From Bacteroidales bacterium (GTDB taxonomy: Bacteria > Bacteroidota > Bacteroidia > Bacteroidales > P3): a stretch of DNA of 57,509 bases. The notes below the pieces were generated by a model. That model made no database searches, was not told the DNA's origin, and worked only from the letters and a program-made list of their open reading frames with translations. The stretch covers positions 1 to 57,509 of the forward strand of contig JAGAYN010000032.1 of NCBI GenBank assembly GCA_017940465.1, read 5' to 3'. Shown one piece after another: positions 6,852-51,605 of this stretch; within the stretch, counting starts at the first letter, position 1; each line of letters opens with the position of its first letter. A program made the position numbers and the translations under genes.

Positions 6852-6876
6852 TAACGGCAGTTGCAGGCCATTATTG
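6852..6876 (-). promoter_or_regulatory. CAATAAT-N13-CGTTA promoter-like element
   Basis: On the minus strand CAATAAT (6876-6870) is followed after exactly 13 bases by CGTTA (6856-6852). The start codon of the coiled-coil lipoprotein is 72 bp downstream. This is one of seven such elements in the window, all oriented toward the gene they precede. No TANNTTTG housekeeping element is seen in this gap. Confidence 0.6.
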
Positions 6877-6910
6877 CACATTGCGGCACAATTTAATGTT
6901 AAAAAAGGTT

Positions 6911-6950
6911 AAAATACAAAGGGTCGCCGCGGAAAAATCCGCGGCGACCC
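6911..6950 (-). terminator. Terminator of the riboswitch-controlled giant gene
   Basis: A perfect 12-bp stem (6921-6932 paired with 6939-6950, arm GGGTCGCCGCGG) with a six-base loop follows the stop codon at 6974 by 23 bp. On the minus strand it is followed by a broken T-rich tract, TTTGTATTTT. The stem is very strong although the T tract is interrupted. Confidence 0.8.
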
Positions 6951-6973
6951 GAAAAGTTGTTTCTACCTGTCGG

Positions 6974-9900
6974 CTAACGTTTTACAATCTTGGTCACGCT
7001 GCCGCCGGCACGGAGCATGTAGACACCCGCAGGCAGCCCGGAGAGGTCGAGCACCTGGATGCCCGCCGTCAGGCTGAAGCGGCCGACCGGACGGCCGGTG
7101 AGGTCGTAGAGCGCCGCCTCGACCGGACGCGACACGCTGACATTCAGCACGTCGGCCGTCGGGTTGGGCCACACATGCTCCACCTCGGCCACGGCGTCGG
7201 CAATGCCCACGGTCGTGGTGTCGGTGTGGTGGATGACGCCCACACCCGCGAGGTCAAAGCCACCGGAGGGACCCGGCGTGGGCCAGGGGTCGTTGATGAT
7301 GTGGCCGAAGGCGTCGTAGGTGCCGTACTGCGGATTGATGCTGCCCACCACATCAACGATACGCACGTGCGTGATGCTGTCGATGTTGATGCCCACGCTG
7401 TCGCGCAGCTCCTCAAGGTCGAACGGCGTGCCGTAGCCTCTGCGGAACTTGCCTGCCAGGTTGTTGATGAAAGTGGGGTCGGTGTTGCCGGTAGAGCTTG
7501 TCTGCGTGTGCGTCTGCGTAAGCGAGGTGGCCGGGAAGCGCACAAAGCGCTCGCCGTCAGAGCTCACCTCGACAAAGGCCAGCTCGAGGAAGGAATCGTT
7601 GAAGCTGTTCTCGAACACCGCGAAGTCGGGGCCGTCGCCATTGGTGATGGGATAGTCGAAGGTGAGGGTGGCCGACCCGCCGTCGCCGAGGCTGAGGACA
7701 TTGATATTGTCCGTAAGCGAAACAGGGCCAAACACATATTCAATTTCGCCATGGTCGACCATCGGCGAATTGGCAACCGAGATGTTCTGCGGTCCACGCT
7801 CCACGGTGCAGCCCGTCGCCCAGGCCACAAACACGCTGCTGTCGGCCGCGATGGCGTTGCATCCCTCGGTGCCCACCGGGCCGCAGAAAGGACCATGCTC
7901 GGGGTCAGGACCAGGGCCGGGGCCGGGATTGCCTCCGGTGGTGTCGGGCACCGAAACCGGCGTCGGCGCCTTCTCCCAGGCATTCTGCATGTTGTAGCCA
8001 TACTGGAAGTCCCAAGGCGTGGCGGAATTGATGTCGCCGAACTTGAACACGTCGCCGTTCTGGAGCGCCGTGGAGGTGCCGAAGGTGCTGAGACCGTTGA
8101 GGTTGGTCCACCAGAAGTTGTAGCCCACGGCGGGGTTCACAGGCGAGAGGCCCAGGGTGTCGCCGTTCTCGAGCACGAAGTGGATGTCGCCACCCGAGGA
8201 CGGATCTCCATCGACCCAGAAGCGCGGGTCGGCCGCGGCGATGGAATCCACCATGACCTGGGCCGTGGCGCTGCCGTTGAAGAGGAAACCCCATGCAAAG
8301 GCGGTGTCGGGCTGGCCGAAGCTGACGATAAAGGCCGCACTGTCACTGCCCGAACCCACCCAATAGAGTATGTCGGAGAAGGCAATGGTGGCATCGACAG
8401 GGTCGGTCGCAGGCGTGATTGTGGTGTCGGAAGGCGTAGTGGTGTCGATGGCGTCGACAGGGTGGATTTCTGTGCTCCATACCACACCGCCCATCGGGAA
8501 CCACTGGCCCGCATAGGGGATGGAGTCGATACCCGTTCCGAAAGCCGACTCGCCGATCTTGAGGAACGAGCCGTCGGTCACCACCGTGCTCCAACCGGCA
8601 TTGCTGTTGCCGTTGAGGATGAACTGCAGGTAGTTGCCGGGCATGGAGGTCTGGAAAGAGAGGTTGGTGTTGTCGCTGCTATAGGTGATGTCGGCAATGG
8701 CCAGCGGATTGTCCACCGAAAGGCGCGGGTCGGCATTGGCAAGGTCCACGATGGCCTGCTGGATGGTGGGGGTGCCGCTGAAGTGCAGCCCCCAGGCCAG
8801 GGCGGTGTCGGGACTGCCCCAGTTGATGGCCACCACAGCGGAGTTCTCGCCCTCGCCCAGCCAGCAGGTGACATCATCCATCGCGATGGTGGCATCCACA
8901 GGACGTGCGGCGACGGTAGCCGGAACAATGGAGGTGGCCCACAGGTCGGCGGCGATGCTGCTCACCACCACGACAGCGCCGTTATAGAGGTCGTAGTCGG
9001 AAAGCATGTCGCCATCGTCGGCCAACACGCCGTCCACCTTGAAGCGGGTGTCGGGCACCACTATCTCCACGGGGTACTCCTTGTAGGCAAAGCCCATCTC
9101 GTAGGTGGTGTAGTCGAGGATGGTGTAGACCAGACGGTGGTCTGCGGCGTCGATGTCGACCGCCATGTCCATAGCCGTGACATCGTCGCTGGGGTCGAAG
9201 CGGTAGCCCCATGCACGGGCGTTGGTGCCGTCCATCACCACGAGGATGGCCTCGGCCGGGCCGGAACCAACCCAGTAGAGGATATCGCTGGCGGCGATGG
9301 TGGCATCCACTGGCGCCACAGTGGTATCAGCAGGCGTGGTGGTGTCGTTTGTGACAAGGCTGACTTTCAGATTGTCGATACCACAGAAGTAGTTGCCCGG
9401 AGCATCGTTCATATGAATGGTGTCCGTACTCTTCCATAGGAACGTCAGACGGGCGTCAGCAGGAATGCTGTCCAACTGGGTGAAGTCGATGGTGTCGTGA
9501 TGAAGAACACGGTAGTCGGTAGGAATGGAGTCGACAGCCACGAAGTCGGAAGTGTCATTCACGATATATCCCACCAGCAAGGCAGCACCATTGCGAGCCG
9601 AGGTGCGATGGTCGAAAGTGAGCCTTGTCCCGGAAAGTGCCTGGTCGAAGGGGGGCAACACAGCGTACTTCCTGGTGCCGTAGTTCTGCTGGTTGGCCAC
9701 AAAGGTGGGATAGGTACCGTCATAGTTTCCATAAGCTATGAACGAGAAGAAAGGATCATTGACGGTTACACATCCATAGTTATTAATACTGGAGGCAGTT
9801 CCGATGCCGGAGAACCAGAGACTGGCGTCGGCGGTGGTGTCGTAGTCTGCCGTGAAGCGGCCATTGCCCACCACCGTCCAGCAGTCAGGCAGCGGAGCGG

Positions 9901-12900
9901 CTGCCACGAAGGGGCGGCCGTTGGTGGCCAGCGTGTAGCCAGAGAAATCTATCTCGTAGGGCAGTGCATGCACCGAATCGCAGAGAACCATGGGGGTAGG
10001 CTGGACGGTATCCACAGGTTCTGCGCTTCCGTATACCACCTGGATATTGTCCACATGCAGGTCGTTGTCGGCGCCGTTGGCGGTGCTTTCGCCATAGAAA
10101 GCGATGCGGATTGCCTGTCCTGCGAAGGCGGCAAGCGAAAGGGTGGCGGAATCGCCTGTGGCAGGTATGGCGCGGTAACGGTAGGAGGTGGTGTCGCTCC
10201 ATTGCGCCAGGACGGTCCAGTGGGCTCCGCTGTCGGCAGTGGCTAGGACCATGAAGCGGTCGTCGGCAAGGCCCGATGCGGCAGTGTCTATCGCCTGGGT
10301 GGTGTTATACTTGGTGAGGGCATAGTCGAATTTCAGCTCGGCATTCCCCTCGATGTTCACTGGCGGGGTGACCATCCAGCGGTTGATGGAGCCGTAGATG
10401 TTCACCTTGAAATGCGGAGAACTCCCGAGGGCGGTCGTGACACGGGTCCATGCCGAGGTCGAGTTGCCGAGCGTGGCAGTGCCGGTGGCATCGTTGAAGA
10501 GGCCTGTATGCATGCTCCAGCAGGGGAAAAGGTCAGCAGCGGCATCCACGGCATCGAAATTCATGATCCATGGCATATCGATCACAGCGCAGCCTGTCTT
10601 GAAATTGGCGGTGCGCGGACGTGTGGGGTTGCCATAGCAGAAGGTGCTCACCTCTACGTTGTAGGTTGTGGCGGGAGAGAGTTGGGTGAGTGTGTAGCTG
10701 GTGTCGCTCACCAGGGCGCTGTCGGCCGTCGTGCCGTCGGTCCAGCGGACGATATAGTCGCCTACATGGGCAGGGTCATACCAGGTCAAGGTAGCCTCAT
10801 GGGCTGTGATGCTGTCCACACCGAACGTGGCCGGGCGATTGCACGAGCTGACCGTGTCCACCATCACATCGTCTATGTAGGAGGTGATATAGGTGCTTGC
10901 CGTGGAGGCCTGGATGATGGTGATACGGCTGCCCGTACCTGCATACCCATTGAGTTCCACCTCATATTCCTCCCAGTCGTTGCTGGCAGGGATGATGGTG
11001 GCCACACGCGTGAAGGTGGTGGTGTCGTCGGTGGCGCTGCTCACACCGACCAGCAGGCGCAGCTTGTTGAACTGCGTGTTGCCGGCCTTGTGCATGAACG
11101 ACACCTTGAGGGTGTTCACCGGCTCATCGAACTCGGGGAGGAAGAAGGCGGAGTAGATGTTGCGGGTAGCATTGGAATAGTAGGAGTAGAGCTTGAGAGA
11201 CTTCTCCCCACTATAGGATGTGGAGGAATTGATGACCACATAGGGGTAGTTGTTATACGCAATAGTTCCGATATTGGAGTACACACGGTTCCAGCAGCGA
11301 TCCATGCCCTCGGCAGCTCCGGCCGGCCAACTTTCAAAGTCGACCACATAGGGCAGCGTGGCTACAGGAATGCAAAGCGTGGAGGCCTCCGCCGGGCGGG
11401 ACATGGTGGCGTTGCCGTCGCTGCACACGCTGGAGACCTGAAGCGTATAGCTGGTGGCAGGAGCGAGGTCCTCTATGGTGTAGACGGTGTCGTTGAAGTC
11501 CACCGTGTCGGACCATTCACCGGAGGCAATGATGTAGCGGTAGCTGCCGTTGTCGGAAGCATCGCTGACAGTGAAGCTTATCGTGGTGGCGCTGACGCTG
11601 TCCACCCTCACACCCTCAATGCGCTGGCACAACGGAGCAGCGTGGATATCAAAGTCGGCCACATACCACCAGCCGCTAGTGGTGTTGGCATTGTGGCGCA
11701 TGGCCATGCGGGCACCGGAGGGGGCACTGGCGAAGGTGAAGGTCTCCTGCTGGTAGGGACCATAGTAGTCGGACGCGGTCAGAGTGCGCACCACGACAAA
11801 CGTGGTGGTGTCGGTGGCATCGGTCAGGTAGCCCACATCGAACGTGCCCGACGAGGCATTGTAGGAACGGGTGCTCATGGCGAGCTCCAGGCCGCTGATG
11901 TCGTCGGCCGTCTCCGGCATCACAAAGACATCCTTGGAACCGGCGGCGCTGGGGACTATCTTCAGCGAGTAGCCCGTGGGGAAGGCGTAGGTGGAGGAGT
12001 GGCTGGCATTGAACAGGGCCACATAGCCTCCTGTGCTGCTCTTGAAGTACTGCCAGCAGGGCATCATGCCGCCCGCCACAGCGTCGGAGTAGCCGTTGGA
12101 GAGGTCCTCATAAGAGGTGAAATCCTCGTGCAGGGGGACCTGTATGGGGCCGCATCCTGTGCGGAAGGTGGTGCTGGTGGCGCCCGTCAGGGAGTCGGAG
12201 CAGAGGGTGTGCACCATGACAGTATACAAGGTGCTGGGCTCAAGTCCGCTGAGGGTGTAGGTGTTTGAGAAGATTTCCAGGCTGTCGCCCGCCGAGGTGC
12301 GGACGATGAAGTGGGTGGAGCCATTGGGGTCGGCGATGTTGAGGGTGGCCGAATAGGCGTCGATGCTGGAGACGGTGACCTGCGAAGGCTTCACGCAGCC
12401 GGCCAGTTCCTCCACCACCACGTTGTCAATACAGGCGGCGCTGTTGCGGCCACGGATAGCCATGCGGCCCGTGCTGCGACCGGCAAAGGTGACGCTGAAG
12501 GTCTCCCACCCTGTTCCGGCACCCGGCTCGCAGACGGCAATGGGGATGAAGGTCGTCTCGTCGGTGGGGTCGGTGACAACACCCACCTCGACGCCGCTGC
12601 GGGAATAGGCACTGCGCACATCGAGGGTGAGCATCAGCTGGTCGGGGCTGTCCTCAAACTCGGGGAGGACCATCAGCGGATGGCGATTGGAGGCGCCGCC
12701 CACATACACACAGCTTCCACCGTCGGAACTATAGGTTGTCGAAGAGTTGATGTAGAGGAAACTGTAGGTGGGGGGATTAGGAACGGTCCAGCAGAAGAGG
12801 TTGTTGATGAAAGCGGCGGTCTGCGAGGCGGTGACGTGGCCGTTCAGGGCATTGAAGTTCTCGCTCCACGGCAGGTCGGTGTGTTGCACCGTGACGCAGG

Positions 12901-13636
12901 GAGTGCGGAAGGGGGTGCGTATAGGATAGGTGTAGGTGCCGTCGGGGCAGATGGCCACCACCTCGACCGTATAGGCCGTATTGGCCGTCAGGCCGGAGAA
13001 GGAGCCGGAGGTGGAGGTGGTCAGCAGGCTGTCCACCATGGTGGTGCCCACCAGCAGGCGGGCGCAGTAGTTGGCGGTGCCGGCAGTGTCGGTAATGGCG
13101 AAGTCGGCTGCGGTGGCGGTGACATTGCTCACCGCGACCGACAGCGGACGCGGGCAGGTGGAGGCCACGGCTGGGTCAACGGGATAGATCACGTTGGTAA
13201 TGCCGCTGTGGTTGTAGTTTCCGCAAGTGGAAGTGGAGATGTGCAGCCACGTGGAGTTCATCGTGCCACTGCCATAGGCGGCATTGTAGCTGTTGCAGTT
13301 GAACCCGGAAGGGGTAAGCTCGATGCCCGCAGAGGGGTCGTCGTAGCGCACCCAGCTCAGGAACGAGCCGCTCATGCTGTAGGTGAAGTGCTCGTCGTAG
13401 GTGGCGATGGAGTCGAGCGCATCAATGAGATGGATGCTGCCGTTCCAGCGCACACCCCACACCACGACGGTGGGTGTGTAGGCGGCCGTGCCGTCGTCCC
13501 AGCCGATACAGACGACCGAACTGTTCGGCCCGCTGCCGGCCCAGAACTGCACGTCGCTTTCATTGATTGTCGGTTGGGCTACCAGACCTGTGGCCAGGGT
13601 CAGCCCAAGAGCGAGTGTTAGTAGTTTTTTGACCAT
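6974..13636 (-). CDS. Giant T9SS-exported modular surface protein under cobalamin riboswitch control
   Basis: A 2220-residue protein starting at the ATG at 13636, where a signal peptide begins (MVKKLLTLALG). The frame is open 54 bases further upstream, but that start would bury the signal peptide. In order: a Trp/Gly module (about 25-90), five alternations of a fibronectin III-like and a MAM-like (choice-of-anchor J) module (about 150-1420, each pair about 250 residues), three more Trp/Gly modules (from about 1442, 1577 and 1746; core YWVGSG...AWG), a surface-protein domain (about 1913-2135; DFAVFENSF, then VEVSSDG) and a T9SS type A sorting domain (about 2152-2220; WPNPTADVL, ending VKR). 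The gene follows a cobalamin riboswitch and its own promoter and ends in its own terminator, so it is monocistronic. A role in corrinoid capture is inferred from the riboswitch, not from a recognised binding site. Confidence 0.85.
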   Translation of the reverse strand: MVKKLLTLALGLTLATGLVAQPTINESDVQFWAGSGPNSSVVCIGWDDGTAAYTPTVVVWGVRWNGSIHLIDALDSIATYDEHFTYSMSGSFLSWVRYDDPSAGIELTPSGFNCNSYNAAYGSGTMNSTWLHISTSTCGNYNHSGITNVIYPVDPAVASTCPRPLSVAVSNVTATAADFAITDTAGTANYCARLLVGTTMVDSLLTTSTSGSFSGLTANTAYTVEVVAICPDGTYTYPIRTPFRTPCVTVQHTDLPWSENFNALNGHVTASQTAAFINNLFCWTVPNPPTYSFLYINSSTTYSSDGGSCVYVGGASNRHPLMVLPEFEDSPDQLMLTLDVRSAYSRSGVEVGVVTDPTDETTFIPIAVCEPGAGTGWETFSVTFAGRSTGRMAIRGRNSAACIDNVVVEELAGCVKPSQVTVSSIDAYSATLNIADPNGSTHFIVRTSAGDSLEIFSNTYTLSGLEPSTLYTVMVHTLCSDSLTGATSTTFRTGCGPIQVPLHEDFTSYEDLSNGYSDAVAGGMMPCWQYFKSSTGGYVALFNASHSSTYAFPTGYSLKIVPSAAGSKDVFVMPETADDISGLELAMSTRSYNASSGTFDVGYLTDATDTTTFVVVRTLTASDYYGPYQQETFTFASAPSGARMAMRHNANTTSGWWYVADFDIHAAPLCQRIEGVRVDSVSATTISFTVSDASDNGSYRYIIASGEWSDTVDFNDTVYTIEDLAPATSYTLQVSSVCSDGNATMSRPAEASTLCIPVATLPYVVDFESWPAGAAEGMDRCWNRVYSNIGTIAYNNYPYVVINSSTSYSGEKSLKLYSYYSNATRNIYSAFFLPEFDEPVNTLKVSFMHKAGNTQFNKLRLLVGVSSATDDTTTFTRVATIIPASNDWEEYEVELNGYAGTGSRITIIQASTASTYITSYIDDVMVDTVSSCNRPATFGVDSITAHEATLTWYDPAHVGDYIVRWTDGTTADSALVSDTSYTLTQLSPATTYNVEVSTFCYGNPTRPRTANFKTGCAVIDMPWIMNFDAVDAAADLFPCWSMHTGLFNDATGTATLGNSTSAWTRVTTALGSSPHFKVNIYGSINRWMVTPPVNIEGNAELKFDYALTKYNTTQAIDTAASGLADDRFMVLATADSGAHWTVLAQWSDTTSYRYRAIPATGDSATLSLAAFAGQAIRIAFYGESTANGADNDLHVDNIQVVYGSAEPVDTVQPTPMVLCDSVHALPYEIDFSGYTLATNGRPFVAAAPLPDCWTVVGNGRFTADYDTTADASLWFSGIGTASSINNYGCVTVNDPFFSFIAYGNYDGTYPTFVANQQNYGTRKYAVLPPFDQALSGTRLTFDHRTSARNGAALLVGYIVNDTSDFVAVDSIPTDYRVLHHDTIDFTQLDSIPADARLTFLWKSTDTIHMNDAPGNYFCGIDNLKVSLVTNDTTTPADTTVAPVDATIAASDILYWVGSGPAEAILVVMDGTNARAWGYRFDPSDDVTAMDMAVDIDAADHRLVYTILDYTTYEMGFAYKEYPVEIVVPDTRFKVDGVLADDGDMLSDYDLYNGAVVVVSSIAADLWATSIVPATVAARPVDATIAMDDVTCWLGEGENSAVVAINWGSPDTALAWGLHFSGTPTIQQAIVDLANADPRLSVDNPLAIADITYSSDNTNLSFQTSMPGNYLQFILNGNSNAGWSTVVTDGSFLKIGESAFGTGIDSIPYAGQWFPMGGVVWSTEIHPVDAIDTTTPSDTTITPATDPVDATIAFSDILYWVGSGSDSAAFIVSFGQPDTAFAWGFLFNGSATAQVMVDSIAAADPRFWVDGDPSSGGDIHFVLENGDTLGLSPVNPAVGYNFWWTNLNGLSTFGTSTALQNGDVFKFGDINSATPWDFQYGYNMQNAWEKAPTPVSVPDTTGGNPGPGPGPDPEHGPFCGPVGTEGCNAIAADSSVFVAWATGCTVERGPQNISVANSPMVDHGEIEYVFGPVSLTDNINVLSLGDGGSATLTFDYPITNGDGPDFAVFENSFNDSFLELAFVEVSSDGERFVRFPATSLTQTHTQTSSTGNTDPTFINNLAGKFRRGYGTPFDLEELRDSVGINIDSITHVRIVDVVGSINPQYGTYDAFGHIINDPWPTPGPSGGFDLAGVGVIHHTDTTTVGIADAVAEVEHVWPNPTADVLNVSVSRPVEAALYDLTGRPVGRFSLTAGIQVLDLSGLPAGVYMLRAGGSVTKIVKR

Positions 13637-13821
13637 TGTTTTGATACTGTTTTTTGTTAATAAAATTGGTTTTCCATACAGTATCGGCACAAATCAAGGG
13701 GAAAATACCAGCCGTCAAGGCAGAGGCGACCGCAATCCGTTGCACACACCACGCACGGGGTGCATCCCATTGCGTCAAGCCGGGCACTTTTCCTCGAAAG
13801 TGATACCGATCACATCGTTCT
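13637..13821 (-). promoter_or_regulatory. Leader between cobalamin aptamer and start codon (expression platform)
   Basis: About 185 bases separate the B12 box from the start codon. The segment is rich in GTGC/GCAC words able to form alternative hairpins, for example around 13748-13767, but I see no clean stem followed by a T run. The platform type (terminator or start-site masking) is therefore undecided. The 30 bases just before the start are AT-rich, as usual for Bacteroidota translation starts. Confidence 0.4.
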
Positions 13822-13985: not shown

Positions 13986-13989
13986 GCGG

Positions 13990-16022: not shown

Positions 16023-16047
16023 CAATAAATGCCGAAAACGCGCGTTA
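16023..16047 (+). promoter_or_regulatory. CAATAAA-N13-CGTTA promoter-like element before the toxin-antitoxin pair
   Basis: CAATAAA (16023-16029), 13 bases, CGTTA (16043-16047), then TGGGGG. The antitoxin start codon is 26 bp further on. No TANNTTTG element is present between here and the gene. Confidence 0.65.
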
Positions 16048-16702: not shown

Positions 16703-16847
16703 CCTCCCCCACCCCGCCGCCTCCGCTGTTTCCCCGCTTTTTTTGAAATAAATCCTGCGGCAGGCATACTAAAAGGAACCGGGGCGCGTTACCATATCAC
16801 CGCAGCGTCCCCTGCGCCGCGCCCTCCCCACCACGTTGATTCCCAGC

Positions 16848-16997: not shown

Positions 16998-17023
16998 CAA
17001 TAATATGGCGGGGGGGTGCGTTA
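16998..17023 (+). promoter_or_regulatory. CAATAAT-N14-CGTTA promoter-like element of the MATE-murB operon
   Basis: CAATAAT (16998-17004) is followed after 14 bases, one more than in the other six copies, by CGTTA (17019-17023) and GGGG. The MATE start codon is 69 bp downstream. Confidence 0.5.
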
Positions 17024-20186: not shown

Positions 20187-21482
20187 ATGACAAAGATTGA
20201 CGTTCTGTTAGGGCTGCAATGGGGCGACGAAGGCAAGGGCAAGATTGTGGATGTCCTCACCCCGGGCTATGACGTCGTGGCCCGTTTCCAAGGCGGTCCC
20301 AATGCAGGCCACACCCTCGAGTTCAACGGCACCAAGCACGTGCTCCATATCATCCCCAGCGGCATCTTCCACCAGGAGAAAACCAACCTCATCGGCAACG
20401 GTGTACTCATCGAGCCGCGCATCTTCCAGCAGGAGATCGCCGCCCTCGAGGAGAAAGGGGTGGATGCCACGAAGAACCTTTATATCAGCAAGAAAGCCCA
20501 CCTCATCCTGCCCAGCCACCGCATGATGGACGCCGCCAACGAGCAGGCCAAGGGAGGGGGCAAGATAGGCTCCACACTGAAAGGCATCGGGCCGGCCTAC
20601 ACGGACAAGATAGCCCGCAACGGGCTGCGCGTGGGCGACACGCTGGCCAGCGACTTCCTGGAGCGCTACATCATGCTCAAGGAACAGCACATCAGCATGG
20701 CGCGCACGCTGGGTTTCGACATCGACGCCTTCCGCATCGACAGCCTTCCGCTGGACGAATACGAGAAACTCTGGCTGGCAAGCCTCGACACGCTGAAGCG
20801 GTTCCGCTTTGTCAACAGCGAATACTTCATCAACCAGTGCCTCAAGGAGGACAAGAAGGTGCTGGCGGAGGGAGCGCAGGCCATGATGCTCGACATCGAC
20901 TTCGGCACCTATCCCTTCGTCACCTCGAGCAACACCATCACCGCCGGCGTATGCACCGGCCTCGGCGTGGCGCCAGGCGCCATAGGGCGTGTGATGGGAA
21001 TCACGAAAGCCTACTGCACACGCGTCGGCGCAGGCCCCTTCCCCACCGAGCTGTTCGACGAGACGGGCCGCCGCCTGTGCGAGCAGGGGCACGAGTACGG
21101 CGCCACCACCGGCCGCCCGCGCCGCTGCGGATGGATAGACATCCCGGCGCTGCGCTACGCCTGCATGATTAACGGGGTGACCGACCTCTTCGTCACCAAG
21201 CCCGACGTGATGAACGACTTCGAGGAGGTCTGCATGTGCACCTCCTATCAAATTGGCGGCCAGAGCACCGATGAAATCCCCTTCGAGTACAACACGGTGG
21301 AGATCACCCCAGAGTACACCGCATACCCCGGCTGGCAGCAAAGCCTGCAGGGCATCTCCGACTATGCCCGCCTGCCGGAGCGGCTGCGCTCCTACCTCGG
21401 CGCCATCGAGCGGATGACCGGCGTCAATATCGCCGCCGTGAGCATCAGTCCCGACAGAAAAGATGTGCTTTTCAAACAATAA
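20187..21482 (+). CDS. purA: Adenylosuccinate synthetase
   Basis: A 431-residue enzyme that joins IMP and aspartate using GTP, the first committed step from IMP to AMP. It has the N-terminal GTP/IMP loop GLQWGDEGKGKIVD with the catalytic Asp, GGPNAGHT, the switch segment KGIGPAYTDK, and the C-terminal GTP-binding region. The length is normal. It has its own -7 element and no close neighbour upstream. The last codons and stop overlap a CAATAAA-N13-CGTTA element that points to the next gene. Confidence 0.97.
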   Translation: MTKIDVLLGLQWGDEGKGKIVDVLTPGYDVVARFQGGPNAGHTLEFNGTKHVLHIIPSGIFHQEKTNLIGNGVLIEPRIFQQEIAALEEKGVDATKNLYISKKAHLILPSHRMMDAANEQAKGGGKIGSTLKGIGPAYTDKIARNGLRVGDTLASDFLERYIMLKEQHISMARTLGFDIDAFRIDSLPLDEYEKLWLASLDTLKRFRFVNSEYFINQCLKEDKKVLAEGAQAMMLDIDFGTYPFVTSSNTITAGVCTGLGVAPGAIGRVMGITKAYCTRVGAGPFPTELFDETGRRLCEQGHEYGATTGRPRRCGWIDIPALRYACMINGVTDLFVTKPDVMNDFEEVCMCTSYQIGGQSTDEIPFEYNTVEITPEYTAYPGWQQSLQGISDYARLPERLRSYLGAIERMTGVNIAAVSISPDRKDVLFKQ

Positions 21483-21501
21483 ACCAGCCACTTCGGCGTT
21501 A
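21477..21501 (+). promoter_or_regulatory. CAATAAA-N13-CGTTA promoter-like element overlapping the purA stop
   Basis: CAATAAA (21477-21483) contains the purA stop codon. CGTTA follows at 21497-21501 after exactly 13 bases. The next start codon is 53 bp downstream. Confidence 0.6.
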
Positions 21502-30794: not shown

Positions 30795-32354
30795 TTATCG
30801 GGTGGATTTGCCGCGCAGCAGCACCGCCGGCACGAGCACCTCCTCCATGGAGAGGCCGCCGTGCTGGAAGGTGTCGGTGTAGTACTGCACGTACTGGTTG
30901 TAGTTGTTGGGGTAGGCGAAGAAATCGTTCTCGCGGCAGAAGATGTAGCCACCGGTGACGTGCCGCCGCGGGAGGAAGAGGCTCTCGGGGTTCTTCACCT
31001 CGAAGACGTCGCGCGGGTTGTAGTCCATCAGGCGCCCCTGTTTGTAGCGCAGGTTCACGCTGATGTCGCGGTCGCCCTTGACCCTGACGGGCCGGTCGAT
31101 GCGGACGGACCCGTGGTCGGTGGTGAGGAGTATGGTGACATCGCGCGAGGCCAGCTCCTTCACCAGCTCCAGCAGGGGCGAATGCTCCATCCACGAGAGG
31201 GTGACCGAGCGGTAGGCCCGCTCGTCGGCGGCCAGTTCGCGCACTATATTGCTGTCCGTACGCGCGTGCGAAAGCATATCTATGAAGTTGTACACCACTA
31301 CATTGAGCGGGTTGCGCATCAGTTCGGGCAGGCGTTCCACCAGCCGCAGGCCGAACTGCGCGTTGAGCACCTTGCTGTAGCTGTGCTTGACGCCGATGCC
31401 ATGGCGGCGCAGGTTCTCGCCGAGGAGTTCGCTCTCGTACTGGTTCTTGTGCCCCTCTTCGTCTTCGTTGACCCAGTATTGGGGGTACTTGCGTTCGATT
31501 TCCGCGGGCAGCAGGCCGGCGAACATGGCGTTGCGGGCAAACTGCGTGGTGGTGGGCAGGAGGGCGTAGTAGAGCTCGTCGCGCTCCACGCGCACGTATT
31601 GTTCCAGCAAGGGCTGGACGGTCTTCCACTGGTCGTAGCGGAAGTTGTCGATGACGATGAGGAAGACGGGCCGCTGCTCCTTGAGCAGGGGGAAGAGGCG
31701 TTCGCGGAGCAGGGTGTGGCTCATGAGGGGTTTCGCCTCCGAGCCGGCGAGCCACTGCTGGTAGTGCTCCTCCATGAAGCGGCAGAAGAGGCGGTTGGCG
31801 TCGCGCCGCTGGGCGAGGAATATGTCGTGGATGTTGCGGTCGTCGACCGAGGCGAGCTCGAGGTCCCAGCGCACGAGCCGCCGCTGCATGTCGGCCCATT
31901 CGGCGGCCGAGAGGCCGCTGTCGAGCTGGAGGGCCAGCTCGCGGAACTGGCGCTGGTAGTCCATCGTCGAGTGCTCGTCCGCCAGGCGGCGCCCCTCGGT
32001 GAGGCGCTTCAGGGTGAGGAGCAGCTGGCTCGGGCTGACGGGCTTGACCAGGTAGTCGCTGATCTTGCCCCCGAGGGCGTCCTCCATGACGTGTTCTTCC
32101 TCGCTTTTGGTCACCATCACCACGTCCACCGCAGGCCACCGCTCCTTGATGGTGCGGAGGGTGTCCAGGCCCGACAGGCCGGGCATCTGCTCGTCGAGCA
32201 GCACCACGTCGGGCTGTGCCGCCTCCATCTCCTCCAGCGCGTCGGCACCGGAGCAGACGGGGATCACTTCATAGCCCTTCTCCTCGAGGAAAAGGATGTG
32301 GGGTTTGAGGAGGTCGATCTCGTCGTCGGCCCACAGAATCTGTGCTTTCGTCAT
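30795..32354 (-). CDS. porX: PorX-type response regulator with PglZ domain (T9SS regulation)
   Basis: A 519-residue protein. The N-terminal receiver domain (1-120) has Asp10/Asp11, the phosphoacceptor Asp54 in LLDEQMPG, Thr82 and Lys104 in YLVKPVSP. After a helical linker comes a PglZ domain of the alkaline phosphatase superfamily with IVIDNFRYDQW, LPTTTQFARNAMF (nucleophile Thr region), NFIDMLSHAR and LLTTDHGSV. This REC-PglZ plan is that of PorX, which with the kinase PorY and the ECF factor SigP controls T9SS genes in Porphyromonas gingivalis. The start at 32354 is set by the receiver domain. It heads an operon with uvrA and lies 31 bp downstream of a CAATAAA-N13-CGTTA element. Confidence 0.92.
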   Translation of the reverse strand: MTKAQILWADDEIDLLKPHILFLEEKGYEVIPVCSGADALEEMEAAQPDVVLLDEQMPGLSGLDTLRTIKERWPAVDVVMVTKSEEEHVMEDALGGKISDYLVKPVSPSQLLLTLKRLTEGRRLADEHSTMDYQRQFRELALQLDSGLSAAEWADMQRRLVRWDLELASVDDRNIHDIFLAQRRDANRLFCRFMEEHYQQWLAGSEAKPLMSHTLLRERLFPLLKEQRPVFLIVIDNFRYDQWKTVQPLLEQYVRVERDELYYALLPTTTQFARNAMFAGLLPAEIERKYPQYWVNEDEEGHKNQYESELLGENLRRHGIGVKHSYSKVLNAQFGLRLVERLPELMRNPLNVVVYNFIDMLSHARTDSNIVRELAADERAYRSVTLSWMEHSPLLELVKELASRDVTILLTTDHGSVRIDRPVRVKGDRDISVNLRYKQGRLMDYNPRDVFEVKNPESLFLPRRHVTGGYIFCRENDFFAYPNNYNQYVQYYTDTFQHGGLSMEEVLVPAVLLRGKSTR

Positions 32355-32385: not shown

Positions 32386-32410
32386 TAACGCCGCCGCCGC
32401 GCTTTTATTG
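32386..32410 (-). promoter_or_regulatory. CAATAAA-N13-CGTTA promoter-like element of the porX operon
   Basis: On the minus strand CAATAAA (32410-32404) is followed after exactly 13 bases by CGTTA (32390-32386) and TGCC. The porX start codon is 31 bp downstream. The surrounding 60 bases resemble the region before ugd at 51571-51631. Confidence 0.65.
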
Positions 32411-34387: not shown

Positions 34388-34412
34388 CAATATTTGCTTC
34401 GCGCCCGCGTTA
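34388..34412 (+). promoter_or_regulatory. CAATATT-N13-CGTTA promoter-like element of the TlpA-like operon
   Basis: CAATATT (34388-34394), 13 bases, CGTTA (34408-34412), then TGGGGGGG. The preferred start codon at 34441 is 28 bp downstream, the same distance class as before the antitoxin, porX and ugd. This supports that start over the ATG at 34423. Confidence 0.6.
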
Positions 34413-34440
34413 TGGGGGGGCAATGAAAAGAGAAAGCACG

Positions 34441-35856
34441 ATGAAACACCTGTATGCACTGCTGCTGGCGCTGCTCCTCCCCCTGGCCTCCCACGCCGCC
34501 AAGGAGGGCTACCGCATCAGCTTCACCGTGGAAGGCTCGCCGGACACGATGATGCTCATGTGCTACTACCACATCAACGGCCTCTGGGCCTACGACACGG
34601 CATGGAACAACGGCAAAGGCGAGTACCGCTTCGAGAAGAAGCGCACCCCGTCGCCGGGCCTCTACTACTTCAGCAACCAGAAAGGCAAGCGGCTGGACTT
34701 CGTCATCTACGCGGGCCAGACGCGCTTCTCCCTGCGCACGAAGGAGGAGGACTGGAAAGGGCACGTGAGCGTGAAAGGCTCGAGCGAGAACGAACTCTTC
34801 TTCCAGTTCCAGCACATGAACGAAACCCTCTACCGCGAGATGGACGAGGCGCAGCTCGAGATGGACTCCGCCACCTTCCGCGACACCTTCTTCCCCCGGC
34901 AGATCAAGCGTATCGACAGCGCCCGCATGGCCTTCATCGAGACCTACCCACAGGCCATGGTGTCGCGCATGATGCTGGCCACCAAAGACCCCGCCATACC
35001 GCGGCTCCACCCCGACGGCACCCGCATGAGCGACCGCGAGCGCTTCGACTGGATGATGGCCCACTACTTCGACAACGTGCCGCTGGACGACGACTTCATC
35101 GTCCGCACCCCGGAGAACGTCTTCTACCGCCGCGTGATGGACTATGTGGACGTGCACATGCGCGGCATGCCGCCGGAGATGATATGCCCGCTGCTGGACA
35201 GCGTCATCGACCGCTCGGAACCCGCGCCAGAGGTGTTCAAATGGCTCGTGCACACCCTGGCCGAGAAATTCCTGCAGAGCAAGGTGATGGTCTACGACGA
35301 GGTGTACGTCCACCTGGTGAAACGCTACTACGAGACCGGGAAAGCCTTCTGGATGTCGCCCACCGGCATCGACAAGGAGGTGGAACGGGCCACCAAATGG
35401 GAGCGCCTCCTCGTGGGACGCGTGGCTCCGGAACTCATCCTCTTCGACACCCTCCACCGCGCCGCCTCCCTGCACCACATGCCGGGGAAGTACACCCTCC
35501 TCCTCTTCTGGAGCCCCACCTGCGGCCACTGCCGCGACATCATCCCGGCCGTCTACAAAGTGTATGAGCAATATGCCGACTCGCTCCAGCTCAGCGCCTT
35601 CAGCATCCTCACCGAACCGGACGAGGTCACCGTCGGCAAATGGAAGAAATTCCTCAACGACCACCACATGCACCACCGCCGCTGGGTGGGCCTGCTGGGC
35701 GGCGAAGCCAACGTGGACTGGCGCGAAGTCTACGACGTGCAGTCCACCCCGCAGATATACCTCATCGACAACAAAGACAACACCATCCTGGCCAAGAAAC
35801 TGGGCGCCGAACTGCTCGAACGCCTCTGCCAGGACCTCATGAAGACACAGGAATAA
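34441..35856 (+). CDS. Exported TlpA-like thioredoxin-fold protein
   Basis: A 471-residue periplasmic or outer-membrane-associated protein. The signal peptide is MKHLYALLLALLLPLASHA-like. A DUF4369-like beta domain follows (YRISFTVEGSPDTMMLMCYY), then a long helical middle (DUF5106-like, about 130-320), then a thioredoxin domain from about residue 330 with the redox motif CGHC at 361-364 and the cis-Pro in STPQIYLID. It probably acts as a disulfide reductase or thiol oxidoreductase in the periplasm. An in-frame ATG 18 bases earlier exists, but the chosen start begins directly with the signal peptide. It is followed after 18 bp by the M3 peptidase gene. Confidence 0.88.
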   Translation: MKHLYALLLALLLPLASHAAKEGYRISFTVEGSPDTMMLMCYYHINGLWAYDTAWNNGKGEYRFEKKRTPSPGLYYFSNQKGKRLDFVIYAGQTRFSLRTKEEDWKGHVSVKGSSENELFFQFQHMNETLYREMDEAQLEMDSATFRDTFFPRQIKRIDSARMAFIETYPQAMVSRMMLATKDPAIPRLHPDGTRMSDRERFDWMMAHYFDNVPLDDDFIVRTPENVFYRRVMDYVDVHMRGMPPEMICPLLDSVIDRSEPAPEVFKWLVHTLAEKFLQSKVMVYDEVYVHLVKRYYETGKAFWMSPTGIDKEVERATKWERLLVGRVAPELILFDTLHRAASLHHMPGKYTLLLFWSPTCGHCRDIIPAVYKVYEQYADSLQLSAFSILTEPDEVTVGKWKKFLNDHHMHHRRWVGLLGGEANVDWREVYDVQSTPQIYLIDNKDNTILAKKLGAELLERLCQDLMKTQE

Positions 35857-35874
35857 GACAAAAACAGCACCGAT

Positions 35875-37902
35875 ATGAAACAAACCCTCGTCGCCGCCGC
35901 GGCAGCCCTGCTGCTGGCCGCCGGCTGCACCCAGAAAAAACAATCCCCAATGGACAATCCCTTCTTCACAGAATGGGGCACCCCCTACGAGTTGCCCGAC
36001 TTCGGCCGCATCAGGACCGAACACTACATGCCCGCCTTCCGGGAAGGCATGGCACGCCAAAAGGCCGAAATCGACGCCATCGCCGCCAACCCCGACGCAC
36101 CGACATTCGAAAACACCGTGCTCGCCTACGAGTACAGCGGACAACTGCTCAAGGACGTCAGCGCCGTCTTCTTCAACCTCACCGAATGCGAGAACAGCGA
36201 CGAGATGGAAGCCATCGCCGAGGAGGTCACTCCTCTGCTCTCGGCCCACGAGGACGACATCGCCCTCGACGCGCGCCTCTTCGCCCGCATCAAGGCCGTC
36301 TATGAACAGCGCGAAAGCCTCGGCCTCGACGGCGAAAGCCTGCGCCTGCTGGAAGAGCAGTACAAAGGCTTCGTCCGCGCCGGCGCCAACGTGCCCGAGG
36401 CACAGCAGCAACGCTTCCGCCAACTCAACGAACAACTCGCCTCGCTCACCCTCCGCTTCGCGCAGAACGTGCTCAAGGCCACCAACGCCTACAGCAAGAC
36501 CCTGCCCGACGGCTCGGCGGTGACCCTGGACCTCCCCACCTGGGAACCCTTCATGCAGAGCTGCGCCGACCGCAAGCTGCGCGAAGAGGTGTGGCGCGCC
36601 TACGCCGACCGCTGCCGGGGCGGCGAATTCGACAACACACCGCTCATCGACTCCATCGTCAACCTCCGCCTCGAACGCGCCAACATCCTCGGCTTCCCCA
36701 CCCACGCCGACTACGTGCTGGACAACACCCTGGCCAAGACACCCGCCAACGTCTACCGCTGCCTGACCGATATCTGGGGTCCCGCCCTCAAGCGCGCCAC
36801 GGAAGAACGCGACATCTACCATCGCATGCTCGCCGCCGACGAGCCCGGCGCCAGGCTGCAACCCTGGGACTGGCGCTACTATGCCGAGAAGTACCGCACC
36901 GAGAAATACGCCATCGACGACGCCGAGGTGCGCCCCTACTTCGCCCTCGACAGCGTGCGCGAAGGGGCCTTCATGGTGGCCGGCCGCCTCTACGGCCTCG
37001 CCTTCCGCGAACGCACCGACCTGCCCACCTACAACAAGGAAGCCCGCTGCTTCGAGGTGATGCAGGGCGACAGCACGGTGGGCTTCCTCTACATGGACTT
37101 CCACCCCCGCGCCTCCAAGCGCAGCGGCGCCTGGATGACCGAATTCCGCGGCCAGCACCGCGACCGCCAGGGCCGCAACGTGATGCCCGTCATCCAGGTG
37201 GTATGCAACTTCACCAAGCCCACTGCCGACCGCCCCTCGCTCCTCAACTTCGACGAAAGCGAGACACTCTTCCACGAATTCGGCCACGCACTCCACGGCC
37301 TCCTCTCCAAATGCACCTACCCCTCGCTGGCCGGCACCAACGTGCCGCGCGACTTCGTGGAGCTCCCCTCCCAAGTGATGGAGAACTGGTGCCGCCACCC
37401 GCAGGTGATGAAGCAGTACGCCCGACACTACCAGACCGGCGAGGCCATCCCCGACGCCCTCATCCGGAAGATAGCCGCCGCCCAGACCTACGGCCAGGGA
37501 TTCATGACCACCGAGCTCCTCGCCGCCAGCCTCCTCGACATGGACTACTACACCCTCCGCACACCGCAGCACATCGACCCCCTCGCCTTTGAGGAACAGG
37601 CCATGCAGAAAATCGGCCTCATCCCGGAAATCATCAGCCGCTACCGCAGCCCATATTTCCAACACATCTTCACCACCGGCTACGACGCAGGCTACTACTC
37701 CTACACCTGGACCGCCATCCTCGACGCCGATGCCTTTGAAGCCTTCGAGGAAAGCGGCGACCTCTTCAACCCCGACCTCGCCCGCAAGTTCCGTCACCTG
37801 CTCGAAAGCGGCAACACCGTGGAACCCATGGACCTCTACCGCGCCTTCCGCGGCAAGGAACCCAGCGCAAAAGCACTGCTCAAACGGAAAGGAATGCTCT
37901 GA
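35875..37902 (+). CDS. M3-family peptidyl-dipeptidase lipoprotein (Dcp-like)
   Basis: A 675-residue zinc metallopeptidase. A lipoprotein signal ends at Cys18 (LLAAGC). The rest is the long helical M3 fold with the zinc motif HEFGH at about residue 467 and the second zinc-ligand Glu in the following helix. The C-terminus contains the family segments SPYFQHIF and GYDAGYYSYTW. M3 enzymes of the Dcp type remove dipeptides from short peptides; the lipid anchor places this one in the periplasm. It is second in the operon after the TlpA-like protein, consistent with envelope protein or peptide turnover. Confidence 0.92.
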   Translation: MKQTLVAAAAALLLAAGCTQKKQSPMDNPFFTEWGTPYELPDFGRIRTEHYMPAFREGMARQKAEIDAIAANPDAPTFENTVLAYEYSGQLLKDVSAVFFNLTECENSDEMEAIAEEVTPLLSAHEDDIALDARLFARIKAVYEQRESLGLDGESLRLLEEQYKGFVRAGANVPEAQQQRFRQLNEQLASLTLRFAQNVLKATNAYSKTLPDGSAVTLDLPTWEPFMQSCADRKLREEVWRAYADRCRGGEFDNTPLIDSIVNLRLERANILGFPTHADYVLDNTLAKTPANVYRCLTDIWGPALKRATEERDIYHRMLAADEPGARLQPWDWRYYAEKYRTEKYAIDDAEVRPYFALDSVREGAFMVAGRLYGLAFRERTDLPTYNKEARCFEVMQGDSTVGFLYMDFHPRASKRSGAWMTEFRGQHRDRQGRNVMPVIQVVCNFTKPTADRPSLLNFDESETLFHEFGHALHGLLSKCTYPSLAGTNVPRDFVELPSQVMENWCRHPQVMKQYARHYQTGEAIPDALIRKIAAAQTYGQGFMTTELLAASLLDMDYYTLRTPQHIDPLAFEEQAMQKIGLIPEIISRYRSPYFQHIFTTGYDAGYYSYTWTAILDADAFEAFEESGDLFNPDLARKFRHLLESGNTVEPMDLYRAFRGKEPSAKALLKRKGML

Positions 37903-48945: not shown

Positions 48946-48977
48946 CCAATCAGGGGTTTGAAGGTGACATCCTCCCC

Positions 48978-49128: not shown

Positions 49129-50259
49129 TTAGCGGCCGGCGTACATGTCCTCGTAGTACTTCATGTAGTCGCCCGAGGTCACCTGGTCCATCCACTCCTG
49201 GTTGTCGAGGTACCAGCGGACGGTCTTCTCGATGCCCTCCTCGAACTGCAGGCTGGGCTCCCAGCCCAGTTCGCGCTGGAGCTTGGTGCTGTCGATGGCG
49301 TAGCGCATGTCGTGTCCCGCGCGGTCGGTGACGTAGGTGATGAGGTCCATGTCCTGCCCCTCGGGGCGGCCCAGGAGGCGGTCCACGGTGTTGATGAGGA
49401 CGCGGACGATGTCGATGTTCTTCCACTCGTTGAAGCCGCCGATGTTATAGGTCTCGGCCACGCGGCCCTGATGGAAGATGAGGTCGATGGCGTGGGCGTG
49501 GTCTTCCACATAGAGCCAGTCGCGCACGTTCTCGCCCTTGCCGTAGACGGGCAGCGGCTTGCGATGGCGTATGTTGTTGATAAAGAGCGGGATGAGCTTC
49601 TCGGGGAACTGGTAGGGGCCGTAGTTGTTGGAGCAGTTGGTGACGATGGTGGGCAGGCCGTAGGTGTCGTGGAAGGCGCGCACGAAGTGGTCGCTGCTGG
49701 CCTTGGCGGCGCTGTAGGGCGAGTGGGGTTGGTACTTGAGTTCCTCGGTGAAGAACTTGTCGCCGTAGGCCATGTGGTGTTCACCACTGGAGGCTTTCGT
49801 ACTGAACGGGGGCTTCACCCCCTCGGGGTGCGTCAGTTCGAGGGCGCCGTACACCTCGTCGGTGGAGATGTGGTAGAAGCGCTTGCCCTCGTATTTCTCC
49901 GGCAGGCTCTCCCAGTAGAGCTTGGCGGCCTGCAGGAGGCTGAGGGTGCCCATGACGTTGGTCTGCGCGAAGGTGAAGGGATCCTTGATGGAGCGGTCCA
50001 CGTGGCTCTCGGCGGCCAGGTGGATGATGGCGTCCACCTGCTCCTCCTGCATCAGCCTGTAGATTCCGTCGAAGTCACAGATATCCATGCGGACGAACTT
50101 GTAGTTGGGCCTGTCCTCGATGTCCTTGAGATTGGCCAGGTTGCCGGCATAGGTGAGTTTGTCGAGGTTGATGATCTTGTACTGTGGGTATTTGCTGACA
50201 AAGAGCCTCACCACATGGCTCCCGATGAAACCGGCCCCGCCGGTGATGATGATGTTCAT
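49129..50259 (-). CDS. rfbB: dTDP-glucose 4,6-dehydratase
   Basis: A 376-residue short-chain dehydrogenase/reductase that forms dTDP-4-keto-6-deoxyglucose for deoxysugar synthesis. It has the NAD motif ITGGAGFIGSH at the start, LAAESHVDRSI, STDEVYG, the catalytic YSAAKASSDH with Tyr and Lys, and NCSNNYGPYQFPEKLIP. The start at 50259 begins directly with the Rossmann strand; two earlier in-frame ATG exist. It follows ugd by 54 bp on the same strand, a pairing suited to capsule, O-antigen or glycoprotein sugar supply. T9SS cargo is often anchored to a surface polysaccharide, so a link is possible but unproven. Confidence 0.95.
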   Translation of the reverse strand: MNIIITGGAGFIGSHVVRLFVSKYPQYKIINLDKLTYAGNLANLKDIEDRPNYKFVRMDICDFDGIYRLMQEEQVDAIIHLAAESHVDRSIKDPFTFAQTNVMGTLSLLQAAKLYWESLPEKYEGKRFYHISTDEVYGALELTHPEGVKPPFSTKASSGEHHMAYGDKFFTEELKYQPHSPYSAAKASSDHFVRAFHDTYGLPTIVTNCSNNYGPYQFPEKLIPLFINNIRHRKPLPVYGKGENVRDWLYVEDHAHAIDLIFHQGRVAETYNIGGFNEWKNIDIVRVLINTVDRLLGRPEGQDMDLITYVTDRAGHDMRYAIDSTKLQRELGWEPSLQFEEGIEKTVRWYLDNQEWMDQVTSGDYMKYYEDMYAGR

Positions 50260-50313
50260 GCGAAATGGTGTTTCTGTATTCATTATTCTACTTTCAAGTT
50301 TCAAAGTCCGCCA

Positions 50314-51555
50314 CTAATCGCGTTTGAAAATGTCGCGCGTGTAGACCTTGTGCTGCACATCGTCGAGGCTGGCGTCGTAGCGGTTGGCGATGATGGCCTG
50401 CGAGCGGCGCTTGAAGTCGTCCAGGCTCCCCACCACCTCGCTGCCGAAGAAGGTGCTGCCGGCCTCGAGGGTGGGCTCGTAGATGATCACCTTGGCGCCC
50501 TTGGCCTTGATGCGCTTCATGACGCCCTGGATGGAGCTCTGGCGGAAATTGTCGCTCCCGCTCTTCATGGTGAGGCGGTAGACGCCCACCGTGCATTCGT
50601 GCTCGCTGGCCGCGTCGTAGTCGCCACGGTTGTAGTAGTCATAGTAGCCGGCCTTCTTCAGCACCTGGTCGGCGATGAAGTCCTTGCGCGTGCGGTTGCT
50701 CTCCACGATGGCGCGGATCAACTCTTCGGGCACGTCGGCATAGTTGGCCAGCAACTGCTTGGTGTCCTTGGGGAGGCAGTAGCCGCCATAGCCGAAGGAG
50801 GGGTTGTTGTAGTGCGTCCCGATGCGGGGGTCGAGGCAGACGCCCTCGATGATGGCCTGTGTGTCGAGGCCCTTCATTTCGGCATAGGTGTCCAGCTCGT
50901 TGAAGTAGCTCACGCGCAGGGCCAGGTAGGTGTTGGCGAAGAGTTTCACCGCCTCGGCCTCCGTGCTGCCCATGAAGAGCACCGGCACCTGCTGCTCGAT
51001 GGCGCCCTCCTTCACCAGCTGGGCGAAGCGCCTGGCCTTGGCCTCCAGCTCGGGGTCGTCCTGTTCGTATCCTACGATGATGCGGCTGGGATAGAGGTTG
51101 TCGTAGAGGGCCTTGCTCTCGCGCAGGAACTCGGGGGCGAAGATGATGTTGCGGCTGCCTGTCTGCTGGCGGATGTGCGCCGTGTAGCCCACCGGGATGG
51201 TGCTCTTGATGACCATCGTGGCCGTGGGGTTGACCTGCATCACCTTCTGGATGACATCCTCCACAGCGCTGGTGTCAAAGAAGTTGCGCGTAGAGTCGTA
51301 GTTCGTCGGCGCCGCAATCACCACATATTCGGCCCCGGCATAGCCCGCCTGCCAGTCCAGCGTGGCACGCAGGGTGAGGGGCTTGTGGGCCAGGTAGTCC
51401 TCGATATAGTCGTCCTGGATGGGCGACTTACGGTTGTTCACCAAATCGACGCGCTCCGGGACGATGTCCACAGCCGTCACGTCATTGTGCTGCGCCAGCA
51501 GGGTGGCGAGCGAAAGGCCGACATATCCGGTGCCGGCAACTGCTATTTTCGTCAT
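50314..51555 (-). CDS. ugd: UDP-glucose 6-dehydrogenase family protein
   Basis: A 413-residue nucleotide-sugar dehydrogenase oxidising UDP-glucose to UDP-glucuronate. It has an N-terminal NAD motif [10 protein letters not shown], the Lys-containing substrate segment [20 protein letters not shown], and the catalytic Cys in [12 protein letters not shown]. It is slightly longer than the 388-residue proteobacterial enzyme of the short class and matches that class throughout. The start codon lies 25 bp downstream of a CAATAAA-N13-CGTTA element. It heads a unit with rfbB. Related dehydrogenases using other UDP-sugars cannot be excluded from sequence alone. Confidence 0.94.
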
Positions 51556-51580
51556 TTTTACATTATATTTAGTACCCCTC

Positions 51581-51605
51581 TAACGCGCCGCCTCCCGTTT
51601 TATTG
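51581..51605 (-). promoter_or_regulatory. CAATAAA-N13-CGTTA promoter-like element of ugd-rfbB
   Basis: On the minus strand CAATAAA (51605-51599), 13 bases, CGTTA (51585-51581), then GAGGGG. The ugd start codon is 25 bp downstream. Confidence 0.65.

Follow-up and report, generated by a model that had tools for sequence, protein, structure and literature searches.

What reads a short two-part sequence that recurs in front of seven genes or operons on one contig of a Bacteroidales bacterium? The stretch concerned (57,509 nucleotides; GenBank assembly GCA_017940465.1, contig JAGAYN010000032.1, positions 1 to 57,509; here called the window) had previously been inspected by sequence alone, without database searches. 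This sequence-only reading reported seven copies of CAATAWW-N12-14-CGTTA and proposed them as promoters for an alternative sigma factor, plausibly of the extracytoplasmic function (ECF) type. All seven copies lie where it had placed them and on the strands it gave, six with a 13-base and one with a 14-base spacer (Table 1). They are as improbable by chance as it had supposed, with a mean of 0.00 copies in 100 dinucleotide shuffles of the window against the seven real ones. The genes named as targets also hold, except for a likeness to PepSY proteins ascribed to the product of 21555-22607, which matches no Pfam family. Here we examine the motif across the genome and its relatives, and argue that it very probably marks a class of core promoters at which RNA polymerase is directed by an alternative sigma factor of ECF type.

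The motif lies close upstream of genes across the genome

The genome that holds the window spans 2.24 Mb in 56 contigs (93.9% complete), and its sampled part has 59% G+C. The nearest relatives of the M3 peptidase encoded in the window (up to 85% identity) come from metagenome-assembled Bacteroidales, the nearest with a named source being from the rumen or reticulum of roe deer, yak, goat, red deer, buffalo and sheep. CAATAWW-N12-14-CGTTA matches this genome 104 times (57 on one strand, 47 on the other) and a reversed control pattern 0 times, so the genome-wide scan proposed in the sequence-only reading places the motif far above chance. To relate sites to genes we used a script of our own for all gene calls, which makes gene distances approximate; on 846 kb (41 stretches including the window) it called 654 genes covering 83% of the DNA. 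The 57 exact matches in this sample comprise 51 upstream of a gene on the same strand, 4 intergenic sites whose next gene is on the opposite strand, 1 at an edge and 1 in coding DNA. Forty of the 57 are in sense orientation with a gene start at most 150 bp downstream, and such places account for 2.9% of strand-positions in the sample (p = 2e-48); the motif thus occurs neither at chance frequency nor without strand bias to genes.

A wider set of 101 distinct sites out of the 104, examined with slightly lower gene-caller thresholds, gave a similar picture: 92 lie upstream of a same-strand gene, 3 precede a gene on the opposite strand, 3 fall inside coding DNA and for 3 the stretch contains no gene. 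Within the 92, 76 sites are at most 150 bp from the start codon (median among these 76, 25 bp), and 21 of the 76 end 14 bp or less from it, leaving little room for another core promoter. A small share of the 92 sites is not independent, since eight precede paralogous DUF6266-like genes (seven within 150 bp, one 534 bp away) and two sites are each present twice with an identical spacer. Exact sites also occur back to back on opposite strands, at L053:7468-7687 and L054:2830-2913; the L053 pair lies 9 and 7 bp before two divergent genes.

Being bipartite, short and recurrent, the sequence might instead be a restriction-modification target or a mobile repeat without promoter function. Against this, genes cover 83% of the sampled DNA yet contain only 1 of the 57 sites, the sites show a strand bias toward genes, and their spacers are unrelated between species. 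The position bias excludes this explanation for most sites, and we give it next to no credence overall.

The motif and the housekeeping promoter box rarely occur together

Aligned sites read RnRCAATAWW followed by GGCGTTAT. The gap between CAATA and CGTTA is 15 bases in 55 cases, 16 in 4 and 14 in 2, while each of the 13 other gaps between 8 and 23 bases occurs in at most two. Expectation-maximisation on 341 upstream regions estimated about 54 sites (16%), and at a score of 7 the resulting matrix, which was trained on those same 341 regions, found 54 sites in sense orientation, 14 in antisense, some of which may serve divergent genes, and 1 in shuffled regions. The same procedure on reverse-complemented regions drifted to a different pattern and was unusable as a control. 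The weight matrix behind the bit scores given below was built from sites of the same genome; its counts in that genome are therefore not independent, whereas tests in other genomes are.

The TAnnTTTG box of housekeeping promoters is also present in the genome, as TATCTTTGCA-like sites, and its distribution is complementary to that of the motif. A relaxed motif pattern is found in 49 of the 341 upstream regions. Of the 292 regions without it, 114 carry TAnnTTTG in sense and 39 in antisense orientation; of the 49 with it, 3 carry the box in sense and 11 in antisense, a depletion (3/49 vs 114/292) with a Fisher p of 1.2e-6. Downstream of an exact motif copy the box was seen in 1 of 33 regions. 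Two known promoter types were considered and set aside. A sigma-A (sigma-ABfr) promoter with TAnnTTTG at -7 does not describe the sites, the box being present in only 3 of the 49 motif regions, and the sigma-54 type (TGGC...TTGC at -24/-12) has a different consensus, with its pattern in 1 of the 341 upstream regions.

Two boxes at near-fixed spacing, on the coding strand and close upstream of genes, with a CGT-type -10 and an AA-containing -35 in the matrix, are features of ECF-type promoters. Because of the two-box anatomy, the near-fixed spacer and the mutual exclusion with TAnnTTTG, we infer that an alternative sigma factor reads the motif and that it is of ECF type, as had been proposed for the window. 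RnRCAATAWW would then be the -35 and GGCGTTAT the -10 element, 13 or sometimes 14 bases apart, and an ECF-type holoenzyme would replace that of sigma-A, the predicted user of TAnnTTTG in this genome. Across 40 sites, G+C stays at 45-78% over bases 2-7 after CGTTA, then drops to 38% at base 8 and to 20% at bases 9-10, a step that fits, suggestively, a transcription start about 6-8 bases past CGTTA. With 104 exact matches and about 14-16% of sampled upstream regions, the class may serve some 100-140 transcription units.

Since fixed-spacing bipartite sites can also be bound by regulators, and PorX, whose own gene carries the motif, has itself been reported to bind promoters (PMC8265659), we considered whether the motif is an activator or repressor site beside ordinary sigma-A promoters. 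Its halves form neither a direct repeat nor a palindrome, and a spacer of 14 in place of 13 is tolerated (4 of 57 exact matches). Such a site should stand next to TAnnTTTG, yet the box is depleted rather than enriched in motif regions and all but missing downstream of the motif, and the 21 of 76 sites that end so close to the start codon argue in the same direction. We regard a regulator site as very unlikely.

A variant promoter of the lineage's housekeeping sigma-A would account for the frequency of the motif and for its place before genes that, by eye, resemble those of seryl- and glycyl-tRNA synthetase and TopA. Other genes of the genome nonetheless use TAnnTTTG, as its sense excess shows, and the two classes exclude each other. 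A CGT-type -10 and spacing of this kind moreover resemble ECF promoters, and we hold the sigma-A variant to be highly improbable.

Type IX secretion genes stand out among many housekeeping-like targets

The genes behind exact sites include a group belonging to the type IX secretion system (T9SS). NCBIfam models identify PorU (E 1.3e-257), PorV (3.2e-133), PorX (2.8e-224) and, for the part inside the stretch, SprA/Sov (1.2e-148), as well as proteins with a T9SS sorting domain and with a GWxTD domain. Among 20 further target proteins, 14 matched a Pfam family, among which are a penicillin-binding protein transpeptidase, YajC, a TonB C-terminal protein, a nucleotidyl transferase, an MIP-family channel, Usp, rubrerythrin, a zinc metallopeptidase, a response regulator and an ABC ATPase (247 bp from its site). 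Several other targets resemble translation and DNA genes, judged by eye from sequence starts, among them the two tRNA synthetases and TopA named above. The window had suggested that targets are mostly envelope functions, which does not extend to the genome: signal peptides were predicted by a crude script for 17 of 75 targets and 51 of 319 controls (p = 0.18). Envelope functions in general are therefore not significantly favoured; what stands out is the set of T9SS genes, and many targets look housekeeping-like. Of the other T9SS genes, porK-N, porT and porP were not located, no search by name having been made for them.

This gene content recalls SigP (PGN_0274) of Porphyromonas gingivalis, an ECF sigma factor acting together with PorX/PorY in the control of genes for type IX secretion. 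Binding of SigP was seen at the promoter regions of porT, porV, porP and ruvA, which is partly co-transcribed with sov (PMC4800418). In our genome sov/sprA, porV, porU and porX carry the motif, as expected of a SigP-like regulon. The motif suggested for SigP, C(T)AAA(G/C/T)A(T)A(C)T(A/G)A, permits a reading that contains CAATAAAA, but it is short and degenerate, with no fixed -10 box reported in the excerpt used (PMC4800418), and the regulon here is large and holds many other genes. In Flavobacterium psychrophilum, SM6 promoters have CGT around -10 and are ascribed to an ECF sigma factor; GldN, PorU and RmlB are among their targets (PMC9723704). In our genome PorU and the ugd-rfbB (rmlB-type) operon carry a CGT -10 site, a likeness that concerns the CGT box and the targets. 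SM4-6 together make up 7% of F. psychrophilum start sites (PMC9723704), whereas here one class accounts for about 14-16% of sampled upstream regions. PM2 of Bacteroides thetaiotaomicron has -30/-10 elements before 75 coding genes, with the ECF sigma factors SigW-1 and SigH-1 as proposed readers, and is near-palindromic and linked to oxidative stress, with TGTT near -10 (PMC7366714, PMC12596196). CAATAWW and CGTTA are not complementary, and the dyad patterns that we tried showed no sense bias in upstream regions, so a near-palindrome of the PM2 type was set aside.

Searches limited to open PMC papers brought up none that we saw to describe the bipartite CAATAWW-N13-CGTTA motif. An ECF-type promoter regulon with T9SS genes is a known kind of system; the sequence, its frequency and its restriction to one genus among sampled genomes appear new. 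PvdS-type ECF promoters of Pseudomonas have AAT in the -35 and CGT in the -10 element at a similar spacing, although organism and regulon are unrelated. To our knowledge, alternative-sigma promoters are poorly known in Bacteroidota, and we know of none defined in uncultured rumen lineages. The sharpness of the motif allows a genome-wide regulon to be drawn from sequence and ties type IX secretion genes to a defined promoter.

Among the genomes sampled, strong use of the motif is limited to one genus

The scan of related genomes, also proposed for the motif at the outset, found all 36 genus mates sampled to be enriched, with 20-123 matches each against 0-6 for the control, while 24 genomes drawn alongside them from other families did not stand out. 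Among 395 genomes of the phylum, none besides this one had more than 26 matches, and the genome with 26 has 29 control matches; among 159 genomes of the order, only this one showed comparable use. A sister genus in the same family (G508) has 6 matches against 11 for the control. Strong genome-wide use of the motif is thus limited to this genus among the genomes sampled. Smaller excesses over the control occur elsewhere in the order (G487, 42 vs 16; G548, 21 vs 5; G510, 16 vs 5; G567, 9 vs 2), and these, in other families, might be smaller regulons or chance.

Conservation at individual loci was followed before porX and before the operon of TlpA-like protein and M3 peptidase. For porX, of 30 genus loci taken from the 40 genomes with a match, 20 (the window's included) reach 11 bits, with a mean spacer identity of 0.31; none of 580 shuffled 156-base stretches from these loci does. 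At 61 of 80 TlpA-M3 loci, scanned within 2 kb before M3, 31 reach 11 bits in sense and 5 in antisense orientation. These sites lie mostly 1.4-1.6 kb upstream of M3, where the TlpA-like gene starts, and their mean spacer identity is 0.27. The remaining 19 loci, eight of which have less than 2 kb upstream, were scanned separately, and three reach 11 bits (L134, L153, L156). With spacer identity so low at both loci, the boxes and their spacing are therefore kept, while the spacer is free to change.

Several observations weigh against a promoter class of this kind. Ten of the 30 porX loci and 30 of the 61 TlpA-M3 loci fall below 11 bits, and for 16 of the 92 same-strand sites the distance to the next called gene exceeds 150 bp. 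Sigma-70 region 2 is matched by 11 genes of the assembly (RpoD and ten ECF-like ones), and an exact copy of the motif lies directly before none of them.

Outside the genus, 29 porX upstream regions from other families contained the full motif in two cases (f90 with N13, f57 with N14) and never in antisense, and CAATAAA alone in 7 sense cases against 1 antisense. Because strong use is genus-limited, yet porX promoters of the same form exist in other families, an old T9SS/SigP-type regulon may have expanded within the genus. One tentative reading, to which we give less than even odds, goes further: a T9SS-linked ECF sigma factor of the SigP type would have become a second near-general sigma factor, with promoters in roughly one of six or seven upstream regions, having spread from a secretion core to genes that resemble those for translation, the cell wall and DNA. 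Comparable genome-wide use is not seen in the sister genus or in the other families sampled. A sigma regulon seemingly grown within one genus makes the co-evolution of sigma factor and promoter testable across dozens of genomes.

Candidate sigma factors

Presence of orthologues across the genus did not single out one ECF, and absences of a sigma type can mostly be explained by incomplete assemblies. Of the candidates weighed, sigma-X and the C50 type, both described below, come out ahead. A possible reader, though one we hold to be somewhat short of an even bet, is a 197-residue ECF here called sigma-X, which may be a SigP counterpart and is 68-100% identical in 31 of the 36 genus mates. Its stretch SINTALGRMRYA probably belongs to the helix that recognises the -35; six of seven homologues from outside the genus share it unaltered, and the seventh differs by one residue. 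All 20 loci read have TAnnTTTG upstream of the sigma-X gene, and in 19 the box lies 76-82 bases from the start codon. This architecture resembles that reported for P. gingivalis sigP, where PorX binds an A-tract with TTTGC behind it between -97 and -75 (PMC8265659), a likeness that is a lead only. Two points count against sigma-X: it was not found in the window's own assembly (94% complete), and a motif-class site precedes it in only 1 of 20 genus loci (G410, L292; 19.2 bits). For the ten ECFs of the assembly, a set to which sigma-X does not belong, no SigP model was among the best 25 NCBIfam families of any. By eye, the sigma-X leader (L292-L311, L356-L361) has a conserved TATCAGTTTTAACCCC in many genus loci and GGAGGC..TATCGA in several other families, and could be a regulatory 5' region.

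A 204-residue ECF on contig C50 (Table 1) is a rather less likely reader. CGTTA was present in 29 of 29 genus loci read (of 30; L280 was left out, and L275 gave an extra false row), in each within the last codons of the preceding gene, where it forms the codon pair NCG TTA with P, T, A or S as first residue. In the genes sampled from this genome 1% of leucine codons are TTA, and the retention of this rare codon while the neighbouring residue changes looks like DNA-level selection inside a coding region. Thirteen bases upstream stands TACT(A/T)TT, the variant -35, with modest scores of 3.7-12.3 bits in the 28 loci (of 30) that were scored. This sigma gene is probably a target of the class, and perhaps of its own product. 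That it was not found in four genus mates of 78-85% completeness speaks against it as the reader.

An ECF on contig C32 (L035 type), with anti-sigma-like and Spy-like genes behind it, is well conserved within the genus alone: identity is 58-90% in 34 of 36 genus mates and does not exceed 41% in the 24 genomes from other families. Upstream of it the same -35 recurs, by eye, as GCAATAA in 22 of 30 genus loci (L202-L231), with GCAAGAAA in its place in 6 of 30. The second conserved box there is (G/A)TAC, however, not CGTTA; the gene was not found in G406, though G406 has 93 motif matches; and the sister genus has a homologue at 37% without motif expansion. We consider it quite improbable as the reader. 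In the same orientation as this ECF gene, a TolQ/ExbB-like gene carries an exact site 2.4 kb upstream of it.

The ECF on contig C6 (L195 type; L232-L261) has by eye an upstream element of its own, GCAACAAA...GTCTA, which differs from the motif. It was not found in G408 (97% complete) or G424 (94%), absences less easily put down to incomplete assemblies, and both keep the motif with 36 and 33 matches against 5 and 5 for the control; it was therefore rejected as the sole sigma factor. That the reader is some sigma factor other than sigma-X and the C50 and C32 types appears unlikely. Separately, an ECF-type sigma domain starts a 510-residue frame at L038:1438-2970, whose long C-terminal part looks outer-membrane-like by eye, and frames of about 550 residues with similar ECF matches occur in other genus members.

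A variant -35 form

Some sites keep CGTTA and the spacing with a different -35. Before porX, G428 and G426 have TACGAAA-N13-CGTTA (both below 11 bits), G404 has TACTAAA-N14-CGTTA (11.0 bits, counted as a pass), and three remote TlpA-M3 loci have CACGATT-N13-CGTTA. In stretches of seven genus genomes TAC[GT]AWW precedes CGTTA 11 times at N13 and once over eight other spacings. Nine of the 11 sites lie between genes, and in 10 cases the next gene is on the same strand, though at a distance of no more than 150 bp in only 5; we regard this form, with less certainty than the main one, as a minor variant of the same promoter. Clade-specific shifts of the -35, sought in stretches of G408, G424, G426, G427, G428 and G410, yielded few sites.

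The sites of the window and their neighbours

Scanned with the weight matrix at a threshold of 11 bits, the window yields the seven known sites and one variant, at 16764-16792. This eighth site lies between the PIN-domain gene and the MATE gene, with no obvious gene directly downstream and MATE about 300 bp on; its target could be MATE or a small RNA. By eye, the stretch that follows it holds short repeats. The open reading frame (ORF) at 16074-16304 has 76 codons, the size of an antitoxin, and the PIN-domain gene comes next. The site at 21477 overlaps the 3' end of an ORF that stops at 21482, and with the ATG at 34423 as start codon the distance from the site at 34388 would shrink to 10 bp.

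Table 1 Promoter-like sites of the window and genes linked to them (distances run from the end of CGTTA to the start codon)
Feature	Position	Strand	Gene behind the site, support
CAATAAT-N13-CGTTA promoter-like site	6852..6876	-	71 bp to lipoprotein-like gene 5908-6780; 25.2 bits
CAATAAA-N13-CGTTA promoter-like site	16023..16047	+	26 bp to ORF 16074-16304; 27.3 bits
Variant TACTAAA-N13-CGTTA, eighth site	16764..16792 (whole matrix match)	+	17.7 bits
CAATAAT-N14-CGTTA promoter-like site	16998..17023	+	69 bp to MATE (17093-18496), then murB; 21.9 bits
CAATAAA-N13-CGTTA promoter-like site	21477..21501	+	53 bp to secreted-looking gene 21555-22607; 25.5 bits
CAATAAA-N13-CGTTA promoter-like site	32386..32410	-	31 bp to porX; 27.0 bits
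CAATATT-N13-CGTTA promoter-like site	34388..34412	+	28 bp to TlpA-like/M3 peptidase operon; 26.1 bits
CAATAAA-N13-CGTTA promoter-like site	51581..51605	-	25 bp to ugd-rfbB; 24.0 bits
PorX, T9SS response regulator, putative regulon member	30795..32354	-	NCBIfam NF052313, E 2.8e-224
DUF4369/TlpA-like thioredoxin protein and M3 peptidase, putative regulon operon	34423..37902	+	Pfam
ugd and rfbB/rmlB-type dehydratase, putative regulon operon (rmlB-type gene second)	49129..51555	-	Pfam
DUF6266-like paralogues with motif upstream	G000 loci L001, L044, L048, L070, L073, L080, L183, L188		
C50-type ECF locus and orthologues	L196:1838-2452; L262-L291		

The window also contains a cobalamin riboswitch (Rfam RF00174, 114.5 bits) at 13805-13997 on the minus strand, about 170 bp before a gene (6974-13636) whose 2220-residue product is of fibronectin type and ends in a T9SS sorting tail; this seems to us an unusual target for a cobalamin riboswitch.

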